NCBI RefSeq assembly: GCF_026914265.1
Contig: NC_069135.1
Coordinates: forward strand, 2,621,001 to 2,685,000
From: Mya arenaria
Taxonomy: Eukaryota > Mollusca > Bivalvia > Myida > Myidae
Length of the DNA stretch: 64,000 bases
Direction: 5' to 3'
Shown: positions 5,055 through 62,600 of the stretch, piece after piece
Layout of the letters: each line of letters opens with the position of its first letter
Position numbering within the stretch: the stretch's first letter is position 1
Notes under the pieces: generated by a model
The model's database searches: none
What the model was told of the DNA's origin: nothing
Seen by the model: only the letters and a program-made list of their open reading frames with translations
Program-made: the position numbers and the translations under genes

Positions 5055-6592
5055 GCTGATAAGACCTTGTAATTAGGTTATGATCTTTACATATGCGTTA
5101 TAAGGTGTGACGCTGATAAGACATTGTAATTAGGTTATGATCTTTACAAATACGTTATAAGCTGTGTTACTGATAAGACCTTGTAATTAGGTCATGATCT
5201 TTACAAACACGTTATAAGGTGTTTCGCTCATAACACCATGTAATAAGGTCATGATTTACAAACACGTTATAAGGTGTGTCGCTGATAAGACCTTGTAATT
5301 AGGTCATGATCTTTACAAACACGTTATAAGGTGTTTCGCTCATAACACCATGCAATTAGGTCATGATTTACAAACACGTTATAAGGTGTGTCGCTGATAA
5401 GACCTTGTAATTAGGTCATGATCTTAACAAACACGTTATAAGGTGTTTCGCTCATAATACCATGTAATTAGGTCATGATTAACAAACACGTTATAAGGTG
5501 AGACAATGTTAAGACCTTGTAATTAGGTCATGATCTTTACAAAAACGTTAAAAGGTGTGTCGCTGATAAGAACTTGTAATTTGGTCATGATCTTTACAAA
5601 TACGTTATAAGGTGTGTCGCTTATAATACCTTGTAATTAGGTCATGATCTTTACAAAAACGTTATAAGGTGTGTCGCTGATAAGACCTTGTAATTAGGTC
5701 ATGATCTTAACAAACACGTTATAAGGTGTGTCGCTGATAAGACCTTGTAATTAGGTCATGATTTTTACAAAAACGTTATAAGGTGTGTCAATGATTAAAC
5801 ATTGTAATTAGGTCAAGATCTTTACAAATACGTTATAAGGTGTGTCGCTGATAAGACCTTGTAATTAGGTCATGGTCTTAAAAAACGTTATAAGGTGGGT
5901 CGCTGATATAACCTTGTAATTAGGTCATGCTCTTTACAAATACGTTAAAAGGTGTGTCGCTGATAAGACCTTGTAATTAGGTCATGATCTTTACAAATAC
6001 GTCATAAGGTGTGTCGCTTATAATACCTTGTAATTAGGTCATGATCTTTACAAATACGTTATGAGGTGTGTCGCTGATAAGACCTTGTAATTAGGTCATG
6101 ATCTTTCCAAATACGTTATAAAGTGTGTCGCTGATAAGACCTTGTAGTTAGGTCATGATCTTTACAAAAACTTGTAGTTAGGTCATGATCTTTACAAACA
6201 CGTTATAAGGTGTGTCAACGATTAGACATTGTTATTAGGTCAAGATCTTTACAAATACGTTATAAGGTGTGTCGCTGATAAGACCTTGTAATTAGGTCAT
6301 GGTCTTAAAAAACGTTATAAGGTGGGTCGCTGATATAACCTTGTAATTAGGTCATGCTCTTTACAAATACGTTAAAAGGTGTGTCGCTGATAAGACCTTG
6401 TAATTAGGTCATGATCTTTACAAGTACGTTATAAGGTGTGACGCTTATAATACCTTGTAATTAGGTCATGATCTTTACAAAAACGTTATAGGGTGTGTCG
6501 CTGATAAGACCTTGTAGTTAGGTCATGATCTTTCCAAATACGTTATAAGGTGTGTCGCTGATAAGACCTTGTAATTAGGTCATGCTCTTTAG
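5055..6592. repeat. 57-bp tandem satellite, about 27 copies
   Basis: The unit reads roughly GCTGATAAGACCTTGTAATT, then AGGTCATGATCTTTACAAA, then TACGTTATAAGGTGTGTC. Each unit contains the inverted pair GACCT-N7-AGGTC. A block of about 170 bp at about 5784-5952 recurs nearly unchanged at about 6211-6380, including a shortened unit with GGTCTTAAAAAACG, which shows a higher-order duplication. Confidence 0.92.
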
Positions 6593-34558: not shown

Positions 34559-34816
34559 ATAATATTGATTTGCTAGGAGAGAAGGACGCCATTTTTCGGG
34601 AGACGACGAACAAAGACAGCAGCAATATTTTAGCGAAGAACGGTGGCAAAAGTGATAGAAAAGTGTGAGAGCATTGAGAATCGTATCATACCACTAAATG
34701 CTTGAAACGAAACAAAGAAATTAAAGCTGAATTACAGGAAAAAGTGGTAACATTTCGAGGGACGTGTTTGCCTAAAAAAAAATCGTAAAACGAAAAATTG
34801 AAACTTCTAAATAGGT

Positions 34817-35338
34817 ATGAAGGACGAAATCAAAAGTGCTGTGGACTTTCTTACAAACATCTTACGCTCAAGAGATAATGTAAACGAAAAGCAACGAAAC
34901 GAGTTTAATACAATTTTGAGGAACTTGTTGAGCGCTCGATTCCAGGGACATTGGTTTCCGCAAAATCCCATGAAAGGGAGTGGCTACAGATGTATTCGAT
35001 TGAACCACAATATGGACCCCCTTATTCTCCAAGCTGGAGAAACTTGTGGACTTAATTGTGCATTTTTGGAGTCAACATTCCCACGAGAACTCACCATCTG
35101 GGTGGATCCTAGGGACGTTTCCTTCAGAATCGGTGAGGATGGCAGTGTGGGCATTCTCTTCCAGTCAGAAAACACTTCATCTCAACTAGCAACTAGTGAT
35201 CTCTCCCCCATTCACCATAGCAACAAGAACTTAAGCAGTACCCTTATGTCGTGCAAGGACCAATTCATGAATGCTTTGCCCAGTCTTGCCTCGGAATCCC
35301 TCCACTATAAGCAGTTTGCTGGCTTTGTGTCAAGCTAG
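34817..35338 (+). CDS. BTG1/BTG2-type anti-proliferative protein
   Basis: A single uninterrupted 173-residue frame. An in-frame TAA at 34808-34810 precedes the ATG, so the start is secure. Box A is at residues 45-63 (HWFPQNPMKGSGYRCIRLN) and box B at 91-115 (ELTIWVDPRDVSFRIGEDGS and following). Y57, W95 and D97 correspond to the BTG2 residues that contact the CAF1/CNOT7 deadenylase, so the protein should recruit CCR4-NOT to mRNAs and restrain proliferation. The tail after about residue 120 is serine-rich and not conserved with vertebrate BTG1/2. Vertebrate BTG1 and BTG2 have an intron near the GYRCIRIN segment; here the coding region is intronless, from intron loss or retroposition. BTG1 versus BTG2 cannot be decided. 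Confidence 0.93.
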   Translation: MKDEIKSAVDFLTNILRSRDNVNEKQRNEFNTILRNLLSARFQGHWFPQNPMKGSGYRCIRLNHNMDPLILQAGETCGLNCAFLESTFPRELTIWVDPRDVSFRIGEDGSVGILFQSENTSSQLATSDLSPIHHSNKNLSSTLMSCKDQFMNALPSLASESLHYKQFAGFVSS

Positions 35339-41600: not shown

Positions 41601-44600
41601 GAATAAACTAAAGTATGTACATAACATGGCAATTGAAAATGTAAATCAAGGGTCCATATTTCCTGGGATCTTGAATTCGTGGATAACCTAACACTCGAAA
41701 ACCACGAACATTAATGCCCCATGAACATTAATGATTTCACAGTATATCAAAAAAATAAAATGACTTTGTCTTGAGGCATCATTTATGATATGAATTAAAT
41801 TAAAAGCTTATATATAATTATTATTGTTGAATGTTGACTAAATTTAGTACTGCCATTATTTTTTTTCATTTCAGACCACCGCTGAGAAGGTTCATACAGA
41901 AATGGGTTTAGTGGTTGATTACATGAAGAATGTCATGCAGCCTCTTCTCTCACCCTCATTTGTCGTCCTCCCTGTAAGTGCCTTGTGGATCTGTTCAAGT
42001 TTTAAACAACTGTTTCAAAAAAATTAGTTTGTTTGATTATAACATCAAACCGATATTATTAAGCCAAAATTCACATGAGTACTCACTCCTGAAACATGTC
42101 TATTTCTTAGGTAATATTTCTTAGGTAATGTTAGTATTATTTTTGAAGTGTTTGGTCTATGACATTTTAGGAGCTGCGTCTGTTGGATGGAGGTATATTG
42201 GAGGAGGCAGAAAACCAGATCCAGGAATCCAGACCAGGTACAGTACTGCAGCTCTCTTGTGTTGTGAATCTGATGCATTCTTAATTTGCAACTGGAGGGA
42301 GAATTTTGATCAAAGTAAATGTACATGAAATATGTGTAGTAGTTCTTCTGGGTTCATGGAAAATCAACTAATTGCCGAATGTTTGGGAAAGTAATTACAA
42401 CCATGGAAAATTTAAAACACTTTTTAAACAGAAACTCCATTGAATCTGCCAAAACAGGCAAGTCAACTTTGCTGAATGCTGCATTTTAAGTCGACATCAT
42501 GACAGGTTTCAAGAGAGTATCAAGTTCTTCCTATAAACACAAAATCTGATGAATAAATGTTAATGTGGTTTGTAAGAAAAACCTTGTTACTAAATTGTGA
42601 GTACTGGTATTTAAAAAGGACTACTTTTATGTTAAGTAAAATATGAGTAATGCTCTACAAATACAGTATGTTGATTTAATCCTTTCAATGTACAGCCCAG
42701 CGTAAAGGCAAGGAGGTAGAACACAGTACAATAGACCCTGATATGCTGTCAGCCCTCGTCCTGCCTGATTTGTGTTATGTACAAGGTCGTGGGACGAACC
42801 TGGACAACACCACACCCACTATCAGTGTGGAAATCAAAGTAAGGTCATCTAAGTTTATAACAATTAACTTGCTATTAAGGCTTTATAAAGCTAGATTGTT
42901 ACAGTGTAGCTGGTAACGTTTAGCACTGCACTCAAGTAGAAATCAGTACTTGTGTACATTTTTAACAAATGTCAAATTTGATAACAACACGATCTTGAAG
43001 GTGAAAGTAACACTTAAACCACTTCTCTTTTTGGGATGAAAACCACCTACCGGTACTCTAGTTTTAGAAAACACACCTATATCACCGCCCTGGTTGAGAG
43101 TATACCTACCACCTCTAGGGTGAGAGGACTTGTCATACCACTCCCCTGGTGGAGATCAAACCCACTACCTTGAGGGTTGGGGTCCCAACATATCACTCCA
43201 CTTTTGGGGATCAAACCTCAACCTTGATGGTGAAAGTATACACCTATACCACACCCTGGTGGGGAACAAACCGCAACCTAGAGGGTTAGGGTATGCACAC
43301 TTCACTCCTGTTAGGCATCAAACTGCACTGTGCCTTGAATGTGAGAGAACACCTATACCACTCCCCTGGTGAGGATCAAACTGCAACCTTGAGGGTGAGA
43401 GTACACCTATACCAACCCTGGATGGGTGTCAAGCGGCAATCATGAGGTTTAGGATACCCACCTTTACCATCCCCTTGGTGGGGAATCAAACAGTTAACCT
43501 TGAGGGTTAAAATACTCCTATACCACTCCCCTGGTGGGGATCAAACCCACCACCAAAGACCACTTCCTAGGTGGGGATTCAACCGCCCACACTTGACCAC
43601 TCCCCTAGCAGGGATTTAAACCACAACCTTGAGGGTGAGAGTACACCTAGACCACTCCCATGGTGGGGATTAAACCCACCACCCAAGACCACTTCCCTGG
43701 TGGGAATTTAAACCATAACCTTGAGGGTGAGAGTACACCTATCACTCCCTGGGTGGGACTCAAACCACAATCTTCAGGGTTAGGATCCCACCTATACCCC
43801 TGGTGGTGATCAAACCCACCACCCTAGAACACTCCCCTAGTCGGGATTCAACCGCCCACCATAGACCACTTACCTAGTGGGGATCAAACCACCCTCCCTA
43901 GACCACTCCACTAGCGGGGATCAAACCCACCACCCTACTCCGCTAGTCGGGATTCAACTGCCCACCATAGACCACTCACCTGGTGGGGATCAAACCCACC
44001 GCCCTAGACCACTCCCCTAGTGAAGATTTAACCACCCACCATAGACCACTCACCTGGTGGGGATCAAACCACCGTCCCTAGACCACTCCACTAGCGGGAA
44101 TCAAACCCACCACCCTGTACCACTCCTCTGGTGGGGATCAAACTCACCACCCTAGACCACTCCCCTGCTGGGGATTCAAACCAACCACCCTATCCCACTC
44201 CCCTAGTGGGGATTCAACCACCCACCCTAGACAACTCCCCTAGTGGGGATTGAACTGCCCACCCTAGACCACTCCCTTGGTGGGGATCAAACCAACCACC
44301 CTAGACCACGCCCCTATTTGGGATTTAACCGCCCACCCTAGACCACTCCACTAATGGGGATTTAAACCACAACCTTGAAGGTGAGAGTACTGCTAGACCA
44401 CTCCTGTGGTTGGGATTAAACCCACCACCCAAGACCCCCCCCCTATTCAAGATTCAAACCAACCACCCTAGACCAGTCCCCTAGTGGGGATCAATCCCAC
44501 CACCATAGACCATTCCCCTATTTGGGATCAAACCAACCACCCTAGACCAGTCCCCTAGTGGGGATCAATCCCACCACCATAGACCACTCCCCTTGTGGGG

Positions 44601-47600
44601 ATCAAACCAACCACCCAAGACTAGTTCCCTAGTGGGGATCAAACCAACCACCCTAGATCAGTCCCCTAGTTGGGATCAAACCAACCACCCTTGACCAGTC
44701 CCCTAGTGGGGATCAAACCCACCACCCTAGACCAGTCCCCTAGTGGGGATTCAACAGTCCACCCTAGACCAGTCCCCTAGTGGGGATTCAAATGTCCACC
44801 CTAGACCACTCCCTTAGTGGGGATTCAACTGTCCACCCTAGACCACTCCCGTAGCAGGGATTTTAACCCCAACCTTGAGGGTGAGAGTACACCTAGACCA
44901 CTCCCAAGGTGGGGATTAAACCCACCACCCTAGACCACTCCTCTGGTGGGGATCAAACCCACCACCTTAGACAACTCCCTTGGTGGGAATCAAACCCACC
45001 ACCCTAGACAACTCACTTGGTGGGGATCAAATCCACCACCCTAGACAACTCCCCTGGTGGGGATCAAACCCACCACCCTAGACAACTCCCCTGGTGAGAA
45101 TTGAAACAACAACCTTGAGGGTGAGAGTTACGTATACACCACTCCCCTGGTGGGGATACCTATATCATTCTCCTGGAAGAGTGGACACCCTCACCACTAC
45201 TCAGCCTCATTAGCGTCTTCGGATATTTGTATTGGGTGTTCTTTGGTCAATAATTGTATTAGTGATAATATTGAGCTGTATCCGCAAGAAATAGCTGTCT
45301 GTAGCTTAATTGAACTCAACAACAAAAAATGAGGCATTTGGTAGACATGTACAATTCTTAATGACCAAGATTCCAAACTGAAATATTGAAAGCCTTTCCA
45401 TGACTAATTGTTTTAAACATATGGATCTAACATTAATTTACATCTGTTGTGAAACTTTGAATCCTTTGTTAAGTGCTTTTTGCCATTAAATGGCTAGGAA
45501 TCACTCTGAATTATTAAATGAATGTTCAAATGACTTGAATTACACAATCTGCAATGGAAATTAAACAAGGAGGAAATCATTCGTTAAATGTAAATGCTAT
45601 CAAGATTGTACTACTACCCCTAGGGTGAATGTATTAACCTTTGCCAGTAATCTAACCAACCCTTCAAGGCTGCTTAAAAGCTAATTTACCAATCCTAGCT
45701 ACGAACTACAGTAAATTTATTGTTTCATAGCCCGTATGACAGGGAAAGTCAGGCAATTTCCTTAAATGAACATAAATAGGCTAGTCAGCCTTCATTGTGG
45801 TCATATGTGATGGTAGGTATTACGTTTCAGTGACTGTCGGCGTATGGTTACTCGGTAAGATTGCTGACAGCTCATTAAAAGTTAATTAAGCTGTTAATGG
45901 TCACAATATTTCTCTGATCCGACATCAGCATACATTAACTGTTTCGCCCTATATAGACACCAGACATGAAGGCTACATGCATACTTGTAAATATGTTCTC
46001 TTTGACTTGCCTAACTGTCAATGTGTTACATAATAATCTTGCACACTTTCTTATAGCTTACTGGCATGGACATGGCTTGTCAAGTTATCAATAGTTAGTA
46101 TTATCTTCGTTGGCCTCCGATATTTTGCCAACATATTTGTGTAGCCAATTGTAGAATCTCTGTGATATTCAAAATGTCTTCCCTACTGTATAGCCAGTTA
46201 TAGTGCCTCTGTGATATTTAATGTGCCTTCCCTTCTATATAGCCAGTTATAGTGCCTCTGTGATATTTAATGTGCCTTCCCTTCTATATAGCCAGTTATA
46301 GTGCCTCTGTGATATTTAATGTGCCTTTCCTTCTCCATAGCCAGTTATAGTGCCTCTGTGATATTTAATGTGCCTTCCCTTCTATATAGCCAGTTATAGT
46401 GCCTCTGTTATAGCATCTCTGTGATATTCAAAATGTCTTCCCTTCTAAATAGCCAGTGATAGTGTCTCTGTTATAGCCAGTTATATCAATTCTGTGATAT
46501 TCCACATGTCTTCCCTTCACTATAGCTAGCTATAGTGTCTCTGTTATAGACAGTTATATCATCTCTGTGATATTCAACATGTCTTCCCTTCACTATAGCT
46601 AGCTATAGTGTCTCTGTTATAGCCAGTTATATCATCTCTGTGATATTCATCATGTCTTCCCCTCAATATAGCTAGCTATAGTGTCTCTGTTATAGCCAGT
46701 AATATCATGTCTGTGATATTCAACATGTCTTCCCTTCACTATAGCTAGCTAGTGTGTCTCTGTTATAGCCAGTTATATCATCTCTGTGATATTCAACATG
46801 TCTTCCCTTCACTATAGCTAGCTATTGTGTCTCTGTTATAGCCAGTTATATCAATTCTGTGATATTCCACATGTCTTCCCTTCACTATAGCTAGCTATTG
46901 TGTCTCTGTTATAGACAGTTATATCAATTCTGTGATATTCCACATGTCTTCCCTTCACTATAGCTAGCTATTGTGTCTCTGTTATAGACAGTTATATCAT
47001 CTCTGTGATATTCAACATGTCTTCCCTTCACTATAGCTAGCTATTGTGTCTCTGTTATAGCCAGTTATATCAATTCTGTGATATTCCACATGTCTTCCCT
47101 TCACTATAGCTAGCTATAGTGTCTCTGTTATAGCCAGTTATATCATCTCTGTGATATTCAACATGTCTTCCCTTCACTAAAGCTAGCTAGTTATTGTATA
47201 TATTTTATAGTCAGTCATAGTTTCTCTGTTATATTCAACATGTCTTCCTTACTTTTTCAGCCAAAGAAAGCATTTAAACACAGCCATGATTCCCTGAACA
47301 TTTCATCGGAGGAGAAATCTCAAGTGTGCAAGTTTTGCATGCATCAAAGATTAAAGGTAAGAAATTGTATTTATCTGAAATGAAATTATTTTTACTGCTT
47401 TCTTATATGAAGAATTATTTGTATTAATTAGTGTTTTGGACACCAGTTTTGCCTGTGCCAGTTATGATTTAAAAAAAACTTTAAATCATTCTTCTGACTA
47501 TACGCTTTTTTGGAAAATTCTGCATCTTCCTCTAGAAGACATTGTTTGACTGGAAACAAACAGTTCTTGCAGTACTGTACAACTTGAGGATAATAATCTG

Positions 47601-50600
47601 TCAAAATGGCATTTTCTTGTCATATTATTGTAAATGAAAAGCTACCACCTGAACAATGTATCCTCTGTTTGCTGACAAGAGTAAGGCCGGTTGTGGTCTG
47701 TATTTAAGATGATTGCACTGGAGTTCTGGCATTTATTATGTATGCATGTTTTTGAAAGAAAAGCTGTGCTTCCTTTTGTCATTATAATTGTATGCATGTA
47801 ATTGAGTGTACTTAAATTACTTAATTTTTTGTGGCATATGTGCAGTTGTCATACTAATATTCCCTAGTAAAATGAACAACTGGCATCCATTTGCTAGTGT
47901 TTTGCACAACTGACATCAATTCACTGGTGTTGGACAACTGTCATCTATTCACTGGTGTTTTGGACAACTGGCATCCATTCACTGATGATTCTGACAACTG
48001 GCATTCATTCACTGGTGTTTCTGACAACTGGCATCCATTCACTGGTGTTTTGGACCACTGGCATCCATTCACTACTGTTTAGTACAACTGGCATCCATTC
48101 ACTGGTGTTTTGGACAACTGGCATCCATTCACTGGTGTTTTGTACAACTGGCATCCATTCACTGGTGTTTTGGACAACTGGTATCCATTTACTATTGTTT
48201 AATACAACTGGCATCCATTCACTAGTGTTTTGGATAACTGGCATCCATTCACTGGTGTTTTTGGACAACTGGCATCTATTCACTGGTGTTGTGGACAACT
48301 GGCATCAATTCACTGATAATTCTGACAACTGGCATTCATTCACTGGTGTTTCTGACAACTGGCATCCATTCACTGGTGTTTTGGACAACTGGCATCAATT
48401 CACTGACAATTCTGACAACTGACATCCATTCACTGGTGTTTTTGGACAACTGGCATCCATTCACTGGTGTTTTGGACAACTGGCATCCATTCACTGGTGT
48501 TTTTGGACAACTGGCATCCATTCACTGGTGTTTTGGACAACTGGCATCCATTCACTGGTGTTTTGGACAAATGGCATCCATTCACTGGTGTTTTGGACAA
48601 CTGGCAACCATTCACTGGTGTTTTGGACAACGTGCATCCATTCACTGGTGTTTTGGACAACTGGCAACCATTCACTTGTGTTTTTGGACTACTGGCATCC
48701 ATTCATTGGTGTTTTGGACAACTGGCATCCATTCACTGGTGTTTTTGGACAACTGGCATCCATTCACTGGTGTTTTGGACAACTGGCATCCATTCACTGG
48801 TGTTTTGGACAACTGGCATCCATTCACTGGTGTTTTGCCAAATGGCATCCATTCACTGGTGTTTTGGACAACTGGCATCCATTCACTGGTGTTTTGGACA
48901 ACTGGCATCCATTCACTGGTGTTTTTGGACTACTGGCATCCATTCACTGGTGTTTTGGACAACTGGCATCCATTCACTGGTGTTTTGCCAAATGGCATCC
49001 ATTCACTGGTGTTTTGGACAACTGGCATCCATTCACTGGTGTTTTGCCAAATGGCATCCATTTACAGTTGTTTTGGACAAATGCCAAATGCACAATCTTT
49101 CGTTGTTGATTGATGCATTTCAGGGCAAATGTTTTGCTGCAAAGCAAATATTGTTACAACTTATCTGCATGAGTGCAACCCCAAAGGTTATATACACAAG
49201 TCAGATTCTGTTCAGCAAAGAAAACTAGGTCAAAACTGACATAAAGTTATGATTCTCTCTTGAAAATGACAAAGTTCATTTAAAATGACATTATACTTGT
49301 ACATAACATATTACATTCCCACTAAACCTGAGGAGACATGCCACAAGCTCATATGGTATCAAGTTTTACTTGTGCAGTGTTTAACCTCAGTTTTACAAGC
49401 AAAACAACATCTTAAAATTAATTTCTTTTTATGATATCAGTTTCTGTTTTTACATGAATCTAAATGGGGAGAGATGTATTTTAAATGCTGTAAACAATTA
49501 AATTGCATAGCAACCGATTCCAGAGACATTGTTACACAAACTGGCAACAAATACTGACATTTCACAGGCCTGTATTGATTTCCGGGAATGTTTCATAGCT
49601 TTATCCTTTGTCATATTCTTGGAATTCTCTCCTAGCCCTGACAGTGTGAATAGATCAGATTAATATCCTGAGATTGAACCTTGGTTTCTAGGGATTGATG
49701 ATATGAAATGAACATTATACATTATAACTGCTTCATTAAAAATGAATATAATGTGAAAGAACAAAAGAAACTTTCCCTGAAAACTTAAACTTGAGAGTAT
49801 GTTAAAATGAATTGTGTTTTGCATCTCTTAAGTGTTTTTGCTTCATCTTTATTCTCATCTAATCAGTGAAAATGTTGTATGACAGACAGCACGTCAACCA
49901 TATGTTTCTTCTCAAGTTAAAATCTCCTGGTGGGTTTCTTATGGAATATTGTTTATGCAACAAGTCCCCTGCAGTGTAATTATTAGAAGTAGCCATATAT
50001 GTACCTCCTTAACTTTCAGATATTTAAAGCCTACGCCTTTTAAGTAGCTGAATGACGGTACATAAGAGTTGTATCTTGCCAGGTTTGACCGGGGGTTAGT
50101 TGGGATTGCTGGCCTGGGTGAGACCAGGGGTTAGTAAATGTACTGGTCTTGCTGGCCGGTTAGACAGTGGGTTAGTTGGTTAACTAGTGTTGCTGGCTGG
50201 GTAAACCAGGTGCCAGTTTCTCGAAACTTTTTGTCCCTTATAACAGTATTAAGCTAATCTCACTATTTTTTTTATATTTAATTCGCATATTGTAAACTTC
50301 ATTCATAGTTATTAGACATTAAATAGGAATTACTTTTAGGGTTATCACAATAAAACATATTTTATTTACCATAATCAAATTAAAGTATGTGTTTTGTCTA
50401 ATTGAAGTAAGCTACTTAAGCCTGTTAAGCTAAAGAAGTTTCGAAAAATTTGGACGAGAGGTTGTTGGTGTACAGGTGTTGGTGGCCGGGTTAGACAGGG
50501 GTTAGCTGGTGTACTGGTGCTGGTGGCAGGGTAATACCAGGGGTTAGTTGGTTAACTGGTGTTGGTGGCCAGGTAAGACCAGGGGTTAGCTGGTGTACTG

Positions 50601-53600
50601 GTGCTGGTGGCAGGGTAATACCAGGGGTTAGTTGGTTAACTGGTGTTGGTGGCCAGGTAAGACCAGGGGTTAGCTGGTGTACTGGTGCTGGTGGCAGGGT
50701 AATACCAGGGGTTAGTTGGTTAACTGGAGTTGGTGGCCAGGTAAGACCAGGGGTTAGTTGGTGTACTGGTGTTGGTGGCAGGGTAATACCAGGGGTTAGT
50801 TGGTTTACTGGTGTTGGTGGCCAGGTTATACCAGGGGTTAGCTGGTGTACTTGTACTGGTGGCAGGGTAATACCAGGGGTTAGTTGGTTTACTGGTGTTG
50901 GTGGCAGGGTAATACCAGGGGTTAGTTGGTGTACTGGTGTTGGTGGCAGGGTAATACCAGGGGTTAGTTGGTTTACTGGTGTTGGTGGCCAGGTAAGACC
51001 AGGGGTTAGTTGGTGTACTTGTACTGGTGGCAGGGTAATACCAGGGGTTAGTTGGTTAACTGGTGTTGGTGGCCAGGTAAGACCAGGGGTTAGTTGGTGT
51101 ACTGGTGTTGGTGGCAGGGTAATACCAGGGGTTAGTTGGTTTACTGGTGTTGGTGGCCAGGTTATACCAGGGGTTAGCTGGTGTACTCGTACTGGTGGCA
51201 GGGTAATACCAGGGGTTAGTTGGTTAACTGGTGTTGGTGGCCAGGTAAGACCAGGGGTTAGCTGGTGTACTGGTGCTGGTGGCCAGATTAGACCAGGGGT
51301 TTGTTGATGTACAGGTGTTGGTGACCAGGTAAGACCAGGGGTTAGTTGGTGTACTGGTGTTAGTGGCCGGGTTAGACCAGGGGTTAGTGAGTGTATTGGT
51401 GCTGGTGGCCAGGTTAGACCAGGGGTTAGTTGGTGTATTGGTGCTGGTGGCCAGGTTAGACCAGGGGTTAGTTGGTGTACTGGTGTTGGTGGCCAGGTTA
51501 GACCAGGGTTTTTTTAATGTACTTGTGTTGCTTCTGATCCTAACAATCACAGATTTGCGTTTGGTGTCATCATGTTTCTTTGCATTTATTTAGAGTTTCA
51601 TCATATTATAAGACACTGGTAGTGCGGAGAATTGTACACATATTCCAACAATTCGGATAAAAAGCAAGATAAAATCAAATAAAAACATTGCCCAAACATT
51701 GCCTTATAGATATTAGTGTATCTGTAGTTCTCAAACATAAAGTAGGTTGTGTTATCAGGACAGGAAATTTATCCACTTTATCCGGGATAATTTCATGATG
51801 AAATCAGAAAACAGAGATAGCAGTGTTTGCTTATAAATGTGTGCCCTGTGGTCCCAGTATGCCCTATCTATTGCATGATACTTTATTTCCTTATACATGG
51901 TATAAAATAAGATGCGTCTTGTTTGTAGGTCACAGTAAATCCCCTATAGAAACCACAACAGGGTTTTTTGTTCTTATGTAAACGGTGGTTTCCCTGATGA
52001 TGTTTTTCTTATGTTTTTTGTCCTTGTAATTTTCCACTTTTAAGGAAAGTTAATTTGGTTTTGTAAGTGTTAACAAATTGAGCTGAAGGCCATTTATTAT
52101 TTAAAGGCTTTCATGGAAATAAATGAAATGCAGTTCACTTAATATGATGTTGTTGTTTTTTGTTTTGTTTCTATAGGAAATGCATGTAAATAAAAACGAC
52201 ATACCCGGTAAGACCGCTAGTAATTGAATTAAATTGTGAGAAATATAAACATATCATCATATATAAATGAACATTGTATGAAAGCTTTTGAAATTGACAA
52301 AATATGTACCCAAAACCATTTCTGAAATTGTTTTGTTTGCTGAGGAGCAGGCATTAATTTGTCATCCTTGTTTACGTAATAGTGATGCATCTCCCAACTC
52401 CAGTTATTAAAATTACACACATATGCGTGGGTTGTGGAGATTACACATGGTGACATGCTTCAGTAGCCGGTTTATATAGTGACGGCACCCAGAATGCAAG
52501 TTGTGAAGATCATGCATGGGTGCTTCAGCAGCTATGTAATAATTACCACAACCACTACCTGAGTTATTGAGATTATGCCCAAGTGCTTCAGTCATCAATG
52601 TTATAGTAACTTTACACACAGCCTGAGTTATTAGGGAGGGTAGTGGGTCCTGTGACTGTTCTGTATCAAGGACAACATTAAATAACAAGCGTGTGATGTA
52701 AGTGAATAGCAATTTAATTCCTTGGAATGCTTGTTATTGAACAGATAAGCCCCTCCTACATGTTAATGATTCGCTATGGGGGTTAATGTGAAGACGAGAA
52801 TAAAAGAAACACTCAAACACAGAACAACTAGAAAAAATGGAATGATTAAGACATAAAGGGATGTCAATTTCAAATCAGGGCAGAGCTGCTCATTTAACGC
52901 CAAAGGATCCAGTATATAATTGTTATAAGGTGGGGGGTGAAAGTTTTGCAGTACAGTTAATGATTTCATGGCCTGATCATAAAACACCCTACAGCTTTTT
53001 GTCTAGAAAAAGATTTAAAAAAAAAAAGATAAATAAAGTTAAACAAGAAATGGTCTGTTATTAATTTGAGTTGTGGTAGTTGTTTTATAAGCTTTAATAT
53101 CAGAAATATACTGGTATTCGCATAAACCACAATGCGTTTCAACAGTGTCCTTTTCAAATCAACAACATACGATATATTTTTCATGAGTTTCATCCTGTTA
53201 CAGAAGTGGGATTTTCCTTGTTTACTTGTTTCGTTGCTTTTCACCGAGTACAAACTGCCTGGATATACAATAATGAAGCACACCTACGCATTATCTAACA
53301 TTTTGAAATGCATTTGAGTAACTATGAATTGATAGACTTTTGAGTGTGTGTTTTCAGCACTTACAAACCACTCATTAGTGGGTTTAGATGTAAGTGGACC
53401 TAAGAACATTGACCTATAATGACCGTAACACAAAAAGATAAACGTTAGTTGACACGCTCGTAACTGATTAATAAGTCATAAACATTATGAACAGGTTATT
53501 GTCTTACTTGGTTTAACTCCGTCACCAGTGGTTAGGAACATTTTGATAGATTATTATCACCTCAGTGCAAATTCGGCAGATTTATTCTCAAGATTTTTTT

Positions 53601-56600
53601 TATTTACTGGCCGATGTTAAACTAAATGATGGGCATTTGTCTGTTAGTGTGTGTTATAGAATTAATTTCAATATTATATAACAGGGTTAACAAGGATCAG
53701 AAATTATAAAAAATATTTTGAAAAAATATTCGCAAGAACCAATCTTTTATTGAAGTTCAGATCAAAAGATAGTTTTGCACAGTATGTGGTAGTTCTGTAA
53801 TATTCTATAGCTGGGCACGTAATGGACATGCTTTACAAAACCTATAAACTGTCAGTGCACTTTATTTGTTTGGTCAAATATGACCACAGGTCAAATTTGT
53901 AGATAAACTTAATTGCTTGTTGTGTACTTTCAGGCAAAAGAAGGCCAGTGGCCAGAGACAAGCAGATACTGTCCGCTAGATCTCTTCTCGGGGTAAGTGA
54001 CCACTGTCCTCTAGAATCTCTTCTCCCAGTGAGCTAAAATTTCTCTTCTTTGCGTAAGTGACCACTGTCAAGTATATCTTGTTATGGGTAAGTGACCTCT
54101 GTCCAGTACATCTTGTTCTGTGGTAAGTGACCAATGTCCAATAGATCTTGTGATGGGGTAAGTGGCAAATGTCTAGTAGATCTTGATATGGGTAAGTGAA
54201 TACAGTGCAGTAGATCTTGTTATGGGGTAAGTGACCACTGTCCAATAGATTTTGTTAGGGGGTAAGTGACAACTGTCCAGTAGATCCTGTTATGGGGTAA
54301 GTGACCACTGTCCAATAGTTCTTAATATGGGGTAAGTGACCACTGTACAGTACATCTTGTTCTGTGGTAAGTGACCAATGTCCAATAGATCTTGTGATGG
54401 GGTAAGTGGCAAATGTCTAGTAGATCTTGATATGGGTAAGTGAACACAGTGCAGTAGATCTTGTTATGGGGTAAGTGACCACTGTCCAATAGATTTTGTT
54501 AGGGGGTAAGTGACAACTGTCCAGTAGATCCTGTTATGGGGTAAGTGACCACTGTCCAATAGTTCTTATTATGGGGTTAGTGACCACTGTACAGTAGATC
54601 TTGTTTTGTTGTAAGTGATGAATGTCCAGTAGATCTTGTGATGGGGTAAGTGGCAAATTTCCAGTAGATCTTGTTATGTGGTAAGTGACCAATGTCCAGT
54701 TTATTTTATTATGTGGTAAGTGATCGCTGTCCAATAGATCTTGTTTTGTGGTAAATGACCAATGTCCAGTAGATGTTATTATGGTGTAAGTGACCACTGT
54801 CCAGTATATCTTATTATGGGGTAAGTGACCACTGTCCAATAGATCTTCTTATGGGGTAATCGACCAATGTCCAGTAATTCTTGATATGGGGTAAGTAGCC
54901 AATGTCCAGGTGATCTTGTTTTGTGGTAGGTGACCAATGTCCAGTGGAACTTATTATGGGGTAAGTGACCACTGTCCAATATATCATGTTATTGGGTATG
55001 TGACCACTGACCAGTAGTTTCTGTTTTGCAGTAAGTGACCATTGTCCAGTAGTTGTTTGCTGGTAGGTGACCACTGCCCTCCAAGTATGTGACTGTCCTC
55101 AAGATAGGTGACCATTGTACACAAGATGGTGTCTTTCAGGGTTAAGTGGACACCGGTAGTGTAATAGTATTACTACTATTAAACAAATCTGAAATTAAAT
55201 GCATTTTCAAGCACTCTTTCAGTATTCACTTTATCTTAGGTTCTGGGAAACAGGATTTGTTCATTATGACTTAAATTGTAATATCCTCTCATCTGCATGA
55301 TCTAATGATAGTCTGTTTCTCTCCATGATTGAAACCAGGTTGCAGGAAAATAAAACACAAGTAGTTACAGTGTTAAGTGAGTCAAGACTCATGACTGGCT
55401 TCCCATTCACTCACTGTCAGCTGTTAATGCTATAAATAGATTTGTTGTTAAGCGGGGTCTTTCCAATGTAGTTTCTACTTAATACTCTTTGTTTGCATTT
55501 GAGTTCAGTGGAGCAGTCCACTGGTATTTTGTCTGAAGAAAGAGTATTGGTTTAACAGTGTGTATTGAAGGTCCTGTTTCAACCCTGACCTCCCCAATAT
55601 CAATGAAAACCCATAAATCTGGAAAATAATCCCTGCAGCTTTTGTCCATTTCAGCTGGCTTAATGATTAGAGTACCGCTAGGTTAAATGAAGTGTGCCCT
55701 GGCAGATGAATGCACTTCAGTGTCAGGGGCTAGAACATGGGGCCTCATACAGGGGTACTATTTATAGGGATTCAGGTTTGGGCTTGTTTATCCGAAGAGC
55801 TCTATAGGGATCCTTGTTAAGACTCTATGTTTCCTAAAACACCTTTTGTTGCCTGACCTTTACTGTTACATTAAAACTATGTCAACAATTTATTCACCAA
55901 ATATTATCAAAATATTTTCTCCTGTTGCATTGTAACATAAATGTCAGCATTCTTTGTTTGGAATGTGACAACATGTGCAGTGTTTTAAACAAAGATTTGA
56001 AAGGGTGATATGAGCTCCCTTCTGGCCCTGTTTCGTGTCAATCAGGGGTTTGCCTGTTAGAGCAGGCCTGGCCATTATCTATCTATAATTATCAAGTAGT
56101 GGACAGAACTGCCACAGGCTATAACATGATCAAGTTTGTGTAATGTCAGGTATACTGGACCCACCAGATATTACTGACAAGTGTTTGTTTACATCAAGTT
56201 AGCTAAAGTCTCATGAATGTTGTATAGATCAATGGATCAATATTTATTCATTAATGAGATGGCAATTTAGACATGCCTGTCATATGGAGTTGTTCTTGTC
56301 AACACAGACATTTTCTCACATCTATAGAAAGTACATTAGTCAAAGGGAAAAAGCTGTTACTGTTGTTTTGATTGCCTTTAGCAAGTATCTTTTGATGCAC
56401 AATCCATTTTCACAGCTCTTTGTTGGGACCATTCCATGTACACACAACCCCTAAAGGGATAAGATGCTTTAAACATTTGTTTTGTCACTACCAAGTCTTG
56501 TAACAAAGGCTTTGATCTTGTGTGGTTGTAATCTGGAGGCATTCAGCCAACTTGAGTTAATCTGATAGCCCAAGCTTTGCCAAAGCCCTGTTGGGATTAG

Positions 56601-59600: not shown

Positions 59601-62600
59601 GTAAACAACTGTACATACTCGTATATATTAATATAAAAGAGTAAAAAAACATAAATGAATGTATGCCTCCTATCAATCTTGGTGTGGAAGTCATGTCTTG
59701 TGGTTTAATATAATCAGATTGGCCTGCACGCCTATACCGCAAACTTTTATGTTATCAGAAATCTTTGTACCAACTCATTGTCAAGTAAAAAACGCAGGCT
59801 GACATCAGCAAATGTGAAACATAATGTATGCCTTTCGCAATTTTGGTTTACCCACAAACAAGACTGATAAGTAATCACTACACGATGTTGTTCGAGATGA
59901 AAAGAAAAGATCTTGTGTACTATAATGTAGTATGAAGTATTGCGTGCATATTTTGAAAGATTGTAGTGGTCGTTTATTTTTAGTCATGTCTGTTATGCAC
60001 TAATAACGCTGAGGCCTCTTGAAGGGACATTTTCCTCTTATGTTTTGATATGATAAATTGTTGTTTAGTTTTACAAAATTTATTTTCTTTAATTTCAGAA
60101 ATAGACAACGAATGAGACATGCTTTGATAGCGCTGGCTGAAACTCCACAGAATAATCTACGAATATGTCAAGTGAGATACTTGGTTGACTCTATATTATT
60201 GTTTTTTGTGAAATTCAAGATTTTATCTTTAACATGTTATTGTGGTATTTAAGATATCAGCTGATACATGTATTACTGAAGTTCAAAGCACTGGTTAACA
60301 TGAAACCAGAATACAGCAGAGAGTGAAACTGTGGAACAATTAAATACATTTGTATCAAACAAAATTTTGACACAATTAAAATTGTCAATTTGTTCTATAG
60401 CCTGGGGAGGTCTGTACTTTGATGTTATAGATGAAAGTCTGGTAATGTGTGAAGTAGATGGTATCTGTCTGTGGTCATTTTAGTAAATACAGTCCAAACT
60501 GGCCAAAGGCTACTGTCATGGTCATTAATTTAAGAGCAATGATAACAATCTCTGATAGTATGTATGTACTGCTGTGATAGAAGGGAGATAACCATTTCTT
60601 TTGATCAAAATATTATATCAGAAGATGGTAAAGGGAAGTAATCAAAACATGATGGAGTGTCAAGTAGTGTAGCCCTATGCTTGTTTTTGACACATATTCA
60701 TATTAAGTATGCAGCCAGTCTGCACCATTTTCTGAAGAAGTCTGGTCTGTCATCCTAAAGACTCATTTTAATTACTGTTATGAGCCCATTGATATTCCTT
60801 TTTACTAAATCACCTTTAAGGATGTGTTCAACTGATAGCGATACCTGAATTGAACTTACTTGTGGTGAAAGAGCAAGAAGACTTAATAAAAAAACATTAT
60901 ATTTTAAGAATCTGGTTTAGTCAATCTTTCAGGTGTAACAAGTCATCATAACCCTCACATTCATTCAACAGGGACAGGAAATATGTTAGTTTTTGGACTT
61001 TTGGCCTTTTTTGAAGTTGAATAAAACTGTGTATATCGTGGCAAGTGTCTGATTCCTTTTACCATATGCTATTTCCAGTAAAAAAGTAATGTAAAAGACT
61101 TAGCTATTTCATCTGCATGGCTGAAAACCACAAATTAATGACATTTCCTGGGCTACATGCATTGCAAAATATCAATTCCCCATTTATTTCACAAACATGA
61201 CAAGTTACATATTACTTTACCGATAAAAAAATAAGCAATGTTCTATATCCTCATGTTTAATACAGAAAAAATATGTGATAGTTATAATGAACAAGAAACA
61301 AGGTAAAGTATGTGATAAGGCCTACAAAAAAAATACATTTGGTTCGGGTAACCCGACCCTACCTACGGAATAGGCGCCCTACCGTTTTTATAGTCAATTT
61401 GAAAAAAAAAAAAAAACCTTAAATGCTTATACAGAAGATAATTTTAACACTATTCTCCAATGATAAAAATAATATTCTTATATAAAGCCTTATAAAAAAA
61501 ACAAAAACAAAAAACCTACCCTACCTATTTTTGAAAAGGATGTTACCCTAACCAAACCATTTATTTTTTTAGGCCTTAATGACTATTGTAACCAAACAAA
61601 TTTCTCGATTTCATGATTTCTATGATCTACAGAGTTAAACAAATCTTAGAAGCCTTTAACGCAAAATTTAAGACATGCTGAAAAGGGAGTAAGGGAAACA
61701 AAAAACAAACATTTTGCAATAATTGCAAAAAAGATCAAATCTCTAACTTTAAATGCGATCCTATTGTGGCAAACATAAGGAACGTTTTGGTGTACAGTCA
61801 AACCTGTATTAAGTGGCCACCCTTGGGAAATGATCAAAGTGGCTGCTTAAGACAGGTGGCCACTTAATCCAGGTTTGACATTTCCACCACTGTAGCTTTA
61901 TTCAGAGATGGAGTATGTATCTTAACCACCACCTCACACCACAATCAATAACATCTGTATCAATATTATTGAAGAATGTTGAATACAAATGCATTTGTAC
62001 AGTTAAAAAAAACTTTATTTCAATTTTATAAATAAAACACATTACATAAAAGTTGATACAAGGCATAAACAAAACACACCACATATCAGTCTACACATTT
62101 ACATGTTTATACACATTTTTAGTTCACTTTTTAAAGTAGTCCGTACATTAAATAAATGTTGATGCATAGGATAAACAAAACACACCACAGATCAGTCTAC
62201 ACATTTACACAACTACATGTGCATACACATTTCCTGTAATTTTCCTCTGTCTTTTTGCATTTGGATTCCATTGCTATCATATTCCTCCACAATTTCACGC
62301 TTACGCTTAAGTAAGAAATTGATTTGAGTCCTTCCACAGTTAAATTGCTTGGCAACACTTCTTGCACTACGGCCGTTTTCTAATAACTTTATACACTCGA
62401 CACGTTCTTTAAGAGTCAAACACTTTCGATTAGTCATTTTTTCAGCCATAATCAAAGTTAAAAAAATATCAAGAACAATGCATTGTAAATATCCGTTCGT
62501 AGAAAATAAATCCGTGCACTTTGAAAAATAATATTGAAGTGAATAAAAATCGTAACTCGTTTCAAGCTGTCGAATGACAATGCAAACTGTGAATTCATAA

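Follow-up and report, generated by a model that had tools for sequence, protein, structure and literature searches.

The 35-bp unit of a minisatellite that directly follows IPPK coding exon E spans the boundary between that exon and its intron, as supported by alignment of the unit consensus to the exon end and donor, and the exon was the likely founder of the array as judged from the sequence. In the window (the whole stretch of 64,000 nucleotides analysed), exon E occupied 53934..53992 (+ strand; 59 nt; AKEGQWPETSRYCPLDLFS plus GG; exon 7 of the first-pass annotation), and its true 5' splice site, GTAAGT, occupied 53993..53998 (+ strand). Tandem Repeats Finder (TRF) delimited the array at 54054-55052, with a period of 35, 28.6 copies and 79% matches, in agreement with the approximately 30 intronic repeats of the first-pass annotation.

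Coding exons backed by sequence similarity numbered four upstream of exon E and one downstream. Exon C was at 47261..47356 (+ strand; PKKAFKHSHD...CMHQRLK; phase 0 end; donor AAG|GTAAGA), and exon F, the next after E, was at 60099..60171 (+ strand; NRQRMRHALIALAETPQNNLRICQ; phase 2 join). The exon translations matched PF06090 as IPPK (E 6.2e-25) with a query that still included ten residues from a later rejected exon, and the four upstream exons joined to E and F, without the rejected exon, matched the solved IPPK chain 5mw8_A (E 2.6e-26). Another candidate, a 31-nt exon at about 52178-52208, was discarded: its residues sat in a gap of the 5mw8_A alignment, and it would disrupt the frame between its flanking exons, which joined well without it. 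The motif of exon E, YCPLDLFSG, had the counterparts YCPLDLYSG in 5mw8_A and YDPLDLFSG in 4axd_A, both solved IPPK chains, which we take to be from mouse and from a plant, respectively; the conservation attributed earlier to CPLDLFSG was seen as CPLDLYSG and DPLDLFSG. A scan of bacterial and archaeal contigs and of viral contigs with 76 IPPK residues found no relative, a result made little informative by the type of collection. A perfect 14-bp duplication (TATTTCTTAGGTAA) was observed at 42101-42129, some 40 nt before an IPPK acceptor.

Manual division of the stretch 53968-55155 gave 35 units, with the exon copy counted among them. The founder unit (53968..54002, + strand), consisting of the last 25 exonic and first 10 intronic nt, matched the unit consensus (ACTGTCCAGTAGATCTTGTTATGGGGTAAGTGACC; in unit scoring, built from the 35-nt units among units 5-31) without gaps at 28/35 sites, against 22/35 at the best place outside the array (42723, + strand), and the ungapped alignment of exon end plus donor described in the first-pass annotation was reproduced. 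Local alignment of the doubled consensus to 3,486 overlapping window pieces on both strands scored 34 at the exon and 24 at the next piece. The 25 exonic nt alone matched at 18/25; among 125,614 positions on both strands, a count that takes in the exon itself, 18 was reached by the exon only and 17 by two others. When the register was set by the donor, the true donor had 18/25 and the next had 12/25 among 284 + strand GTAA sites outside arrays (true donor included in the count), and this comparison was fairer because the donor fixes the register. Most of the similarity between exon and consensus fell on positions that the amino acid sequence dictates. When the peptide of the exon was recoded at random with synonymous codons, 27,586 of 200,000 recodings matched the consensus at 18/25 or more (mean 15.9), and synonymous sites thus added little; this recoding control is no null for homology and was not used as one.

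Units 2 and 3 (54003..54063, + strand) were exon-like and irregular in length, and both retained the exon's TCTCTTCT. Units 4-32 (54064..55070, + strand) formed a homogenised body of mostly 35-bp units that held most of the decoy donors, and units 33-35 (55071..55155, + strand) formed a degenerate 3' edge at near-equal distance to consensus and exon, with weak exon-likeness. Like units 2 and 3, units 32-35 were irregular or short of full length. No Rfam family reached its gathering threshold within the window. A segmental duplication was present within the array at 54098..54585 (+ strand): 54098-54341 and 54342-54585, of seven units each, were identical at 239/244 sites, and mean identity between units was 80% (28 units). 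The seven-unit, 244-bp duplication is much younger than the average unit pair. Tandem arrays are often mis-assembled, and this internal duplication could partly be an assembly doubling, both of which would speak for an array that is an assembly artefact or heavily mis-sized. Such an error is highly improbable, since at a mean unit-to-unit identity of 80% most copies are individually distinguishable, and seven other arrays with other units (author's grouping) occurred in the same window.

Similarity to the exon was concentrated next to the exon. Unit 2 (54003-54033, + strand), aligned to the exon alone, scored 34, against a maximum of 21 among 5,272 other pieces. Unit 3 scored 16 (not significant; 270 of the 5,272 pieces as high), unit 34 scored 18 (reached by 10 pieces), and the 3'-most unit was hardly above background (17 with the donor, against a background mean of 11.7 and a best score of 26 elsewhere). 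Unit-to-exon identity, on which the nucleation proposed by the first-pass annotation depended, was thus better than chance in unit 2, not significant in unit 3 and weak in units 34 and 35. The score difference, exon minus consensus, was +10.5 in unit 2 and +7 in unit 3, between -5 and -13 in units 4-32, and -2, 0 and +0.5 in units 33-35. The two most exon-like of the 34 units were the two adjoining the exon (a chance of 1 in 561 from position only). In a tree of the aligned units rooted on the exon (about 35-44 columns; units 33 and 34 left out as too short; no support values), unit 2, the last unit and unit 3 branched off before all interior units, with unit 2 next to the exon. The motif is common to the solved IPPK chains, and the exon would therefore be the older part and not derived from the array, which makes exon to array the sensible direction of copying. 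Nucleation of a minisatellite on the exon-intron boundary, as first proposed, was in line with the unit match, the exon-like unit 2 and the exon-rooted tree, all of which point to the exon as likely founder. Alternatively, units 2 and 3 could descend from another duplication of the exon at a later time, instead of surviving from the first.

Part of the match would also be expected from an unrelated intronic minisatellite lying beside the exon, with a likeness due to the shared donor consensus and chance. Ten of the 28 matching sites were intronic, and six of those were the common GTAAGT; the 18 matches in the exonic 25 nt were one ahead of two other places; and the 42-bp array in the intron upstream of exon E had seven strong decoy donors, yet matched 0/10 IPPK junctions tested. 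This explanation is hardly credible against the difference at the donor-set register (18/25 and 12/25) and against the score of unit 2 to the exon alone (34 and at most 21), and the GTAA-site comparison and unit scoring together would leave it close to refuted.

GTAAGT occurred 24 times downstream of the true donor (34 downstream units) and at 0.27 per kb in the rest of the window (+ strand). The exact 9-mer of the true donor (GGGGTAAGT) was present at 13 of these 24 sites. The series of a true donor and many decoys was therefore as described in the first-pass annotation, and its wording that most copies keep GGG|GTAAGT was too strong. On a simple donor matrix, 17 array donors equalled or outscored the true donor. 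The intron is in phase 2 and the frame reads GG|G TAA, a stop at once if unspliced, so that use of a decoy would truncate IPPK after ...CPLDLFSG. Extensions to 6 of the 21 listed decoys were translated and all stopped directly after LFSG; the remaining listed decoys would stop likewise because their extensions run through the same bases. The coding-like repeats that decoy use was earlier expected to add to the mRNA would, given this immediate stop, not be added to the protein.

Regulated decoy use, by which mRNA with the in-frame TAA would be degraded and the array would be an unproductive-splicing switch tuning the level of IPPK, is compatible with the 17 array donors at least equal to the true donor and with an extension that stops at once in frame, the form expected of an unproductive isoform. 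It is improbable in view of the two systems with which the array can be compared. In intron 7 of human coagulation factor VII (F7), which has 37-bp repeats, the most upstream repeated donor alone is normally used according to excerpts of a review (PMC6627357), where donor choice is ascribed to 'oriented scanning' (Borensztajn 2006, cited in PMC6627357). The minisatellite-like tandem copies of lancelet intron-exon boundaries known as mirages are reported or suggested to be harmless to splicing in excerpts of PMC3087553 and PMC3902484.

The explanation preferred with high confidence is duplication of the 35-bp boundary, expansion within the intron with a homogenised middle, selection on the exon and, most likely, use of the first donor. 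The initial event would have been a 35-bp tandem duplication across the 3' end of the IPPK exon and the adjoining 5' splice site. The intronic copies, we infer, may then have increased to about 30 units through slippage, unequal exchange or conversion, which would also have homogenised the middle of the array. The exon would meanwhile have been kept by selection on the CPLDLFSG motif. The first donor, presumably alone, is most likely still used in splicing, and the array would therefore be a tolerated, near-neutral passenger. Precedents for such arrays are the lancelet mirages and F7, both reportedly spliced at the correct site, and they support boundary duplication as the best explanation.

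A second boundary array of IPPK was found at 46159..47260 (+ strand), with 49/73-bp units. It occupied 46159-47224 and continued into the acceptor of exon C, where the real intron end, ...TTCAACATGTCTTCCTTACTTTTTCAG|, was its last, partial copy (47225-47260). The last 40 intron nt before exon C scored 47 against this array; 1,967 random 40-mers reached 26 at most, and the other four IPPK acceptors tested scored 13-17. This array is the mirror image of the exon E case, with the 3' instead of the 5' splice site. Its unit was almost wholly intronic, with hardly any exon sequence, and its direction was therefore not readable; the acceptor at the array end is real. The 57-, 30-, 44-, 37-, 30- and 42-bp arrays, six of eight by the author's grouping, matched 0/10 IPPK junction pieces above the maximum of random pieces, in a comparison confined to the junctions of IPPK. 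That splice junctions themselves seed minisatellites in this genome, as one array starting at a 5' site and another ending at a 3' site of a single gene might suggest, is unlikely. If true, it would mean junction-linked nucleation, with co-transcriptional breaks or splice-site slippage as examples of a mechanism, and junction-seeded arrays would continually supply decoy sites and eventually new splice sites.

The IPPK span (41875-63966) contained five minisatellite arrays with different units, covering 6,885/22,091 bp (author's bounds). The 42-bp array (50060-51530), well inside the C-E intron, had seven donor-like sites whose scores equalled or exceeded that of the true donor of exon E. Elsewhere in the window, the 57-bp array (5055-6591) had 18 moderate donor-like sites (+ strand) and a 427-bp higher-order repeat, and a long open frame (34811-35335) had a BTG/Tob-family look by eye.

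The exon E array is not unique, lancelet mirages and the repeats of F7 intron 7 being of the same kind. As given in excerpts of PMC3087553, mirages copy both 5' and 3' ends, their haplotypes differ in length and their edges escape homogenisation; many copies carry splice signals, and regular splicing is suggested to be undisturbed (PMC3087553; PMC3902484). The mirage genes named there are Adh3 and troponin C (as cited in PMC3087553, PMC3902484), the globins BflGb6 and BflGb9, and PGBD5 (PMC3087553; PMC3902484), the last a further mirage whose authors suggest that such repeats leave splicing alone (PMC3902484). Like mirages, the IPPK unit spanned a coding exon-intron boundary (28/35 over 25 exonic and 10 intronic nt), splice signals were present in many copies (24 GTAAGT, 13 with the exact 9-mer), and the array was homogenised inside, with exon-like units 2-3 and a diverged 3' edge of weak exon-likeness. 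Unlike mirages, the IPPK array had about 30 copies of 35 bp; for the two BflGb6 haplotypes the same excerpts give 6 and 3 copies, each of 150-160 bp, and they put Adh3 mirage units at 10-72 bp.

As in F7 intron 7, the true IPPK donor was the first in a series of near-identical repeated donors; the F7 excerpts are silent on exon sequence in the unit, which the IPPK unit contains. Internal tandem repeats with a mean unit length of about 30 bp occur in human segmental-duplication genes, in part at exon-intron boundaries, where they alter splicing and can give rise to new introns, as stated in excerpts of PMC2812944; in IPPK, by contrast, decoy use would end the protein at once. Papers on earthworm metallothionein, seabream myostatin and reduced penetrance, from a literature search without IPPK by name, described no closer case in the parts seen. 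No new class is opened by the IPPK array, because mirages and F7 already do likewise.

If the source of the window is not a lancelet, the mirage pattern would extend to another animal group. The IPPK array provides a clean natural series, in which one real donor is followed by many near-equal ones, and its founder can still be read because it is protein-coding. It would allow a test, outside F7, of whether position is what makes the first donor win, and it also informs how boundary minisatellites start and spread.
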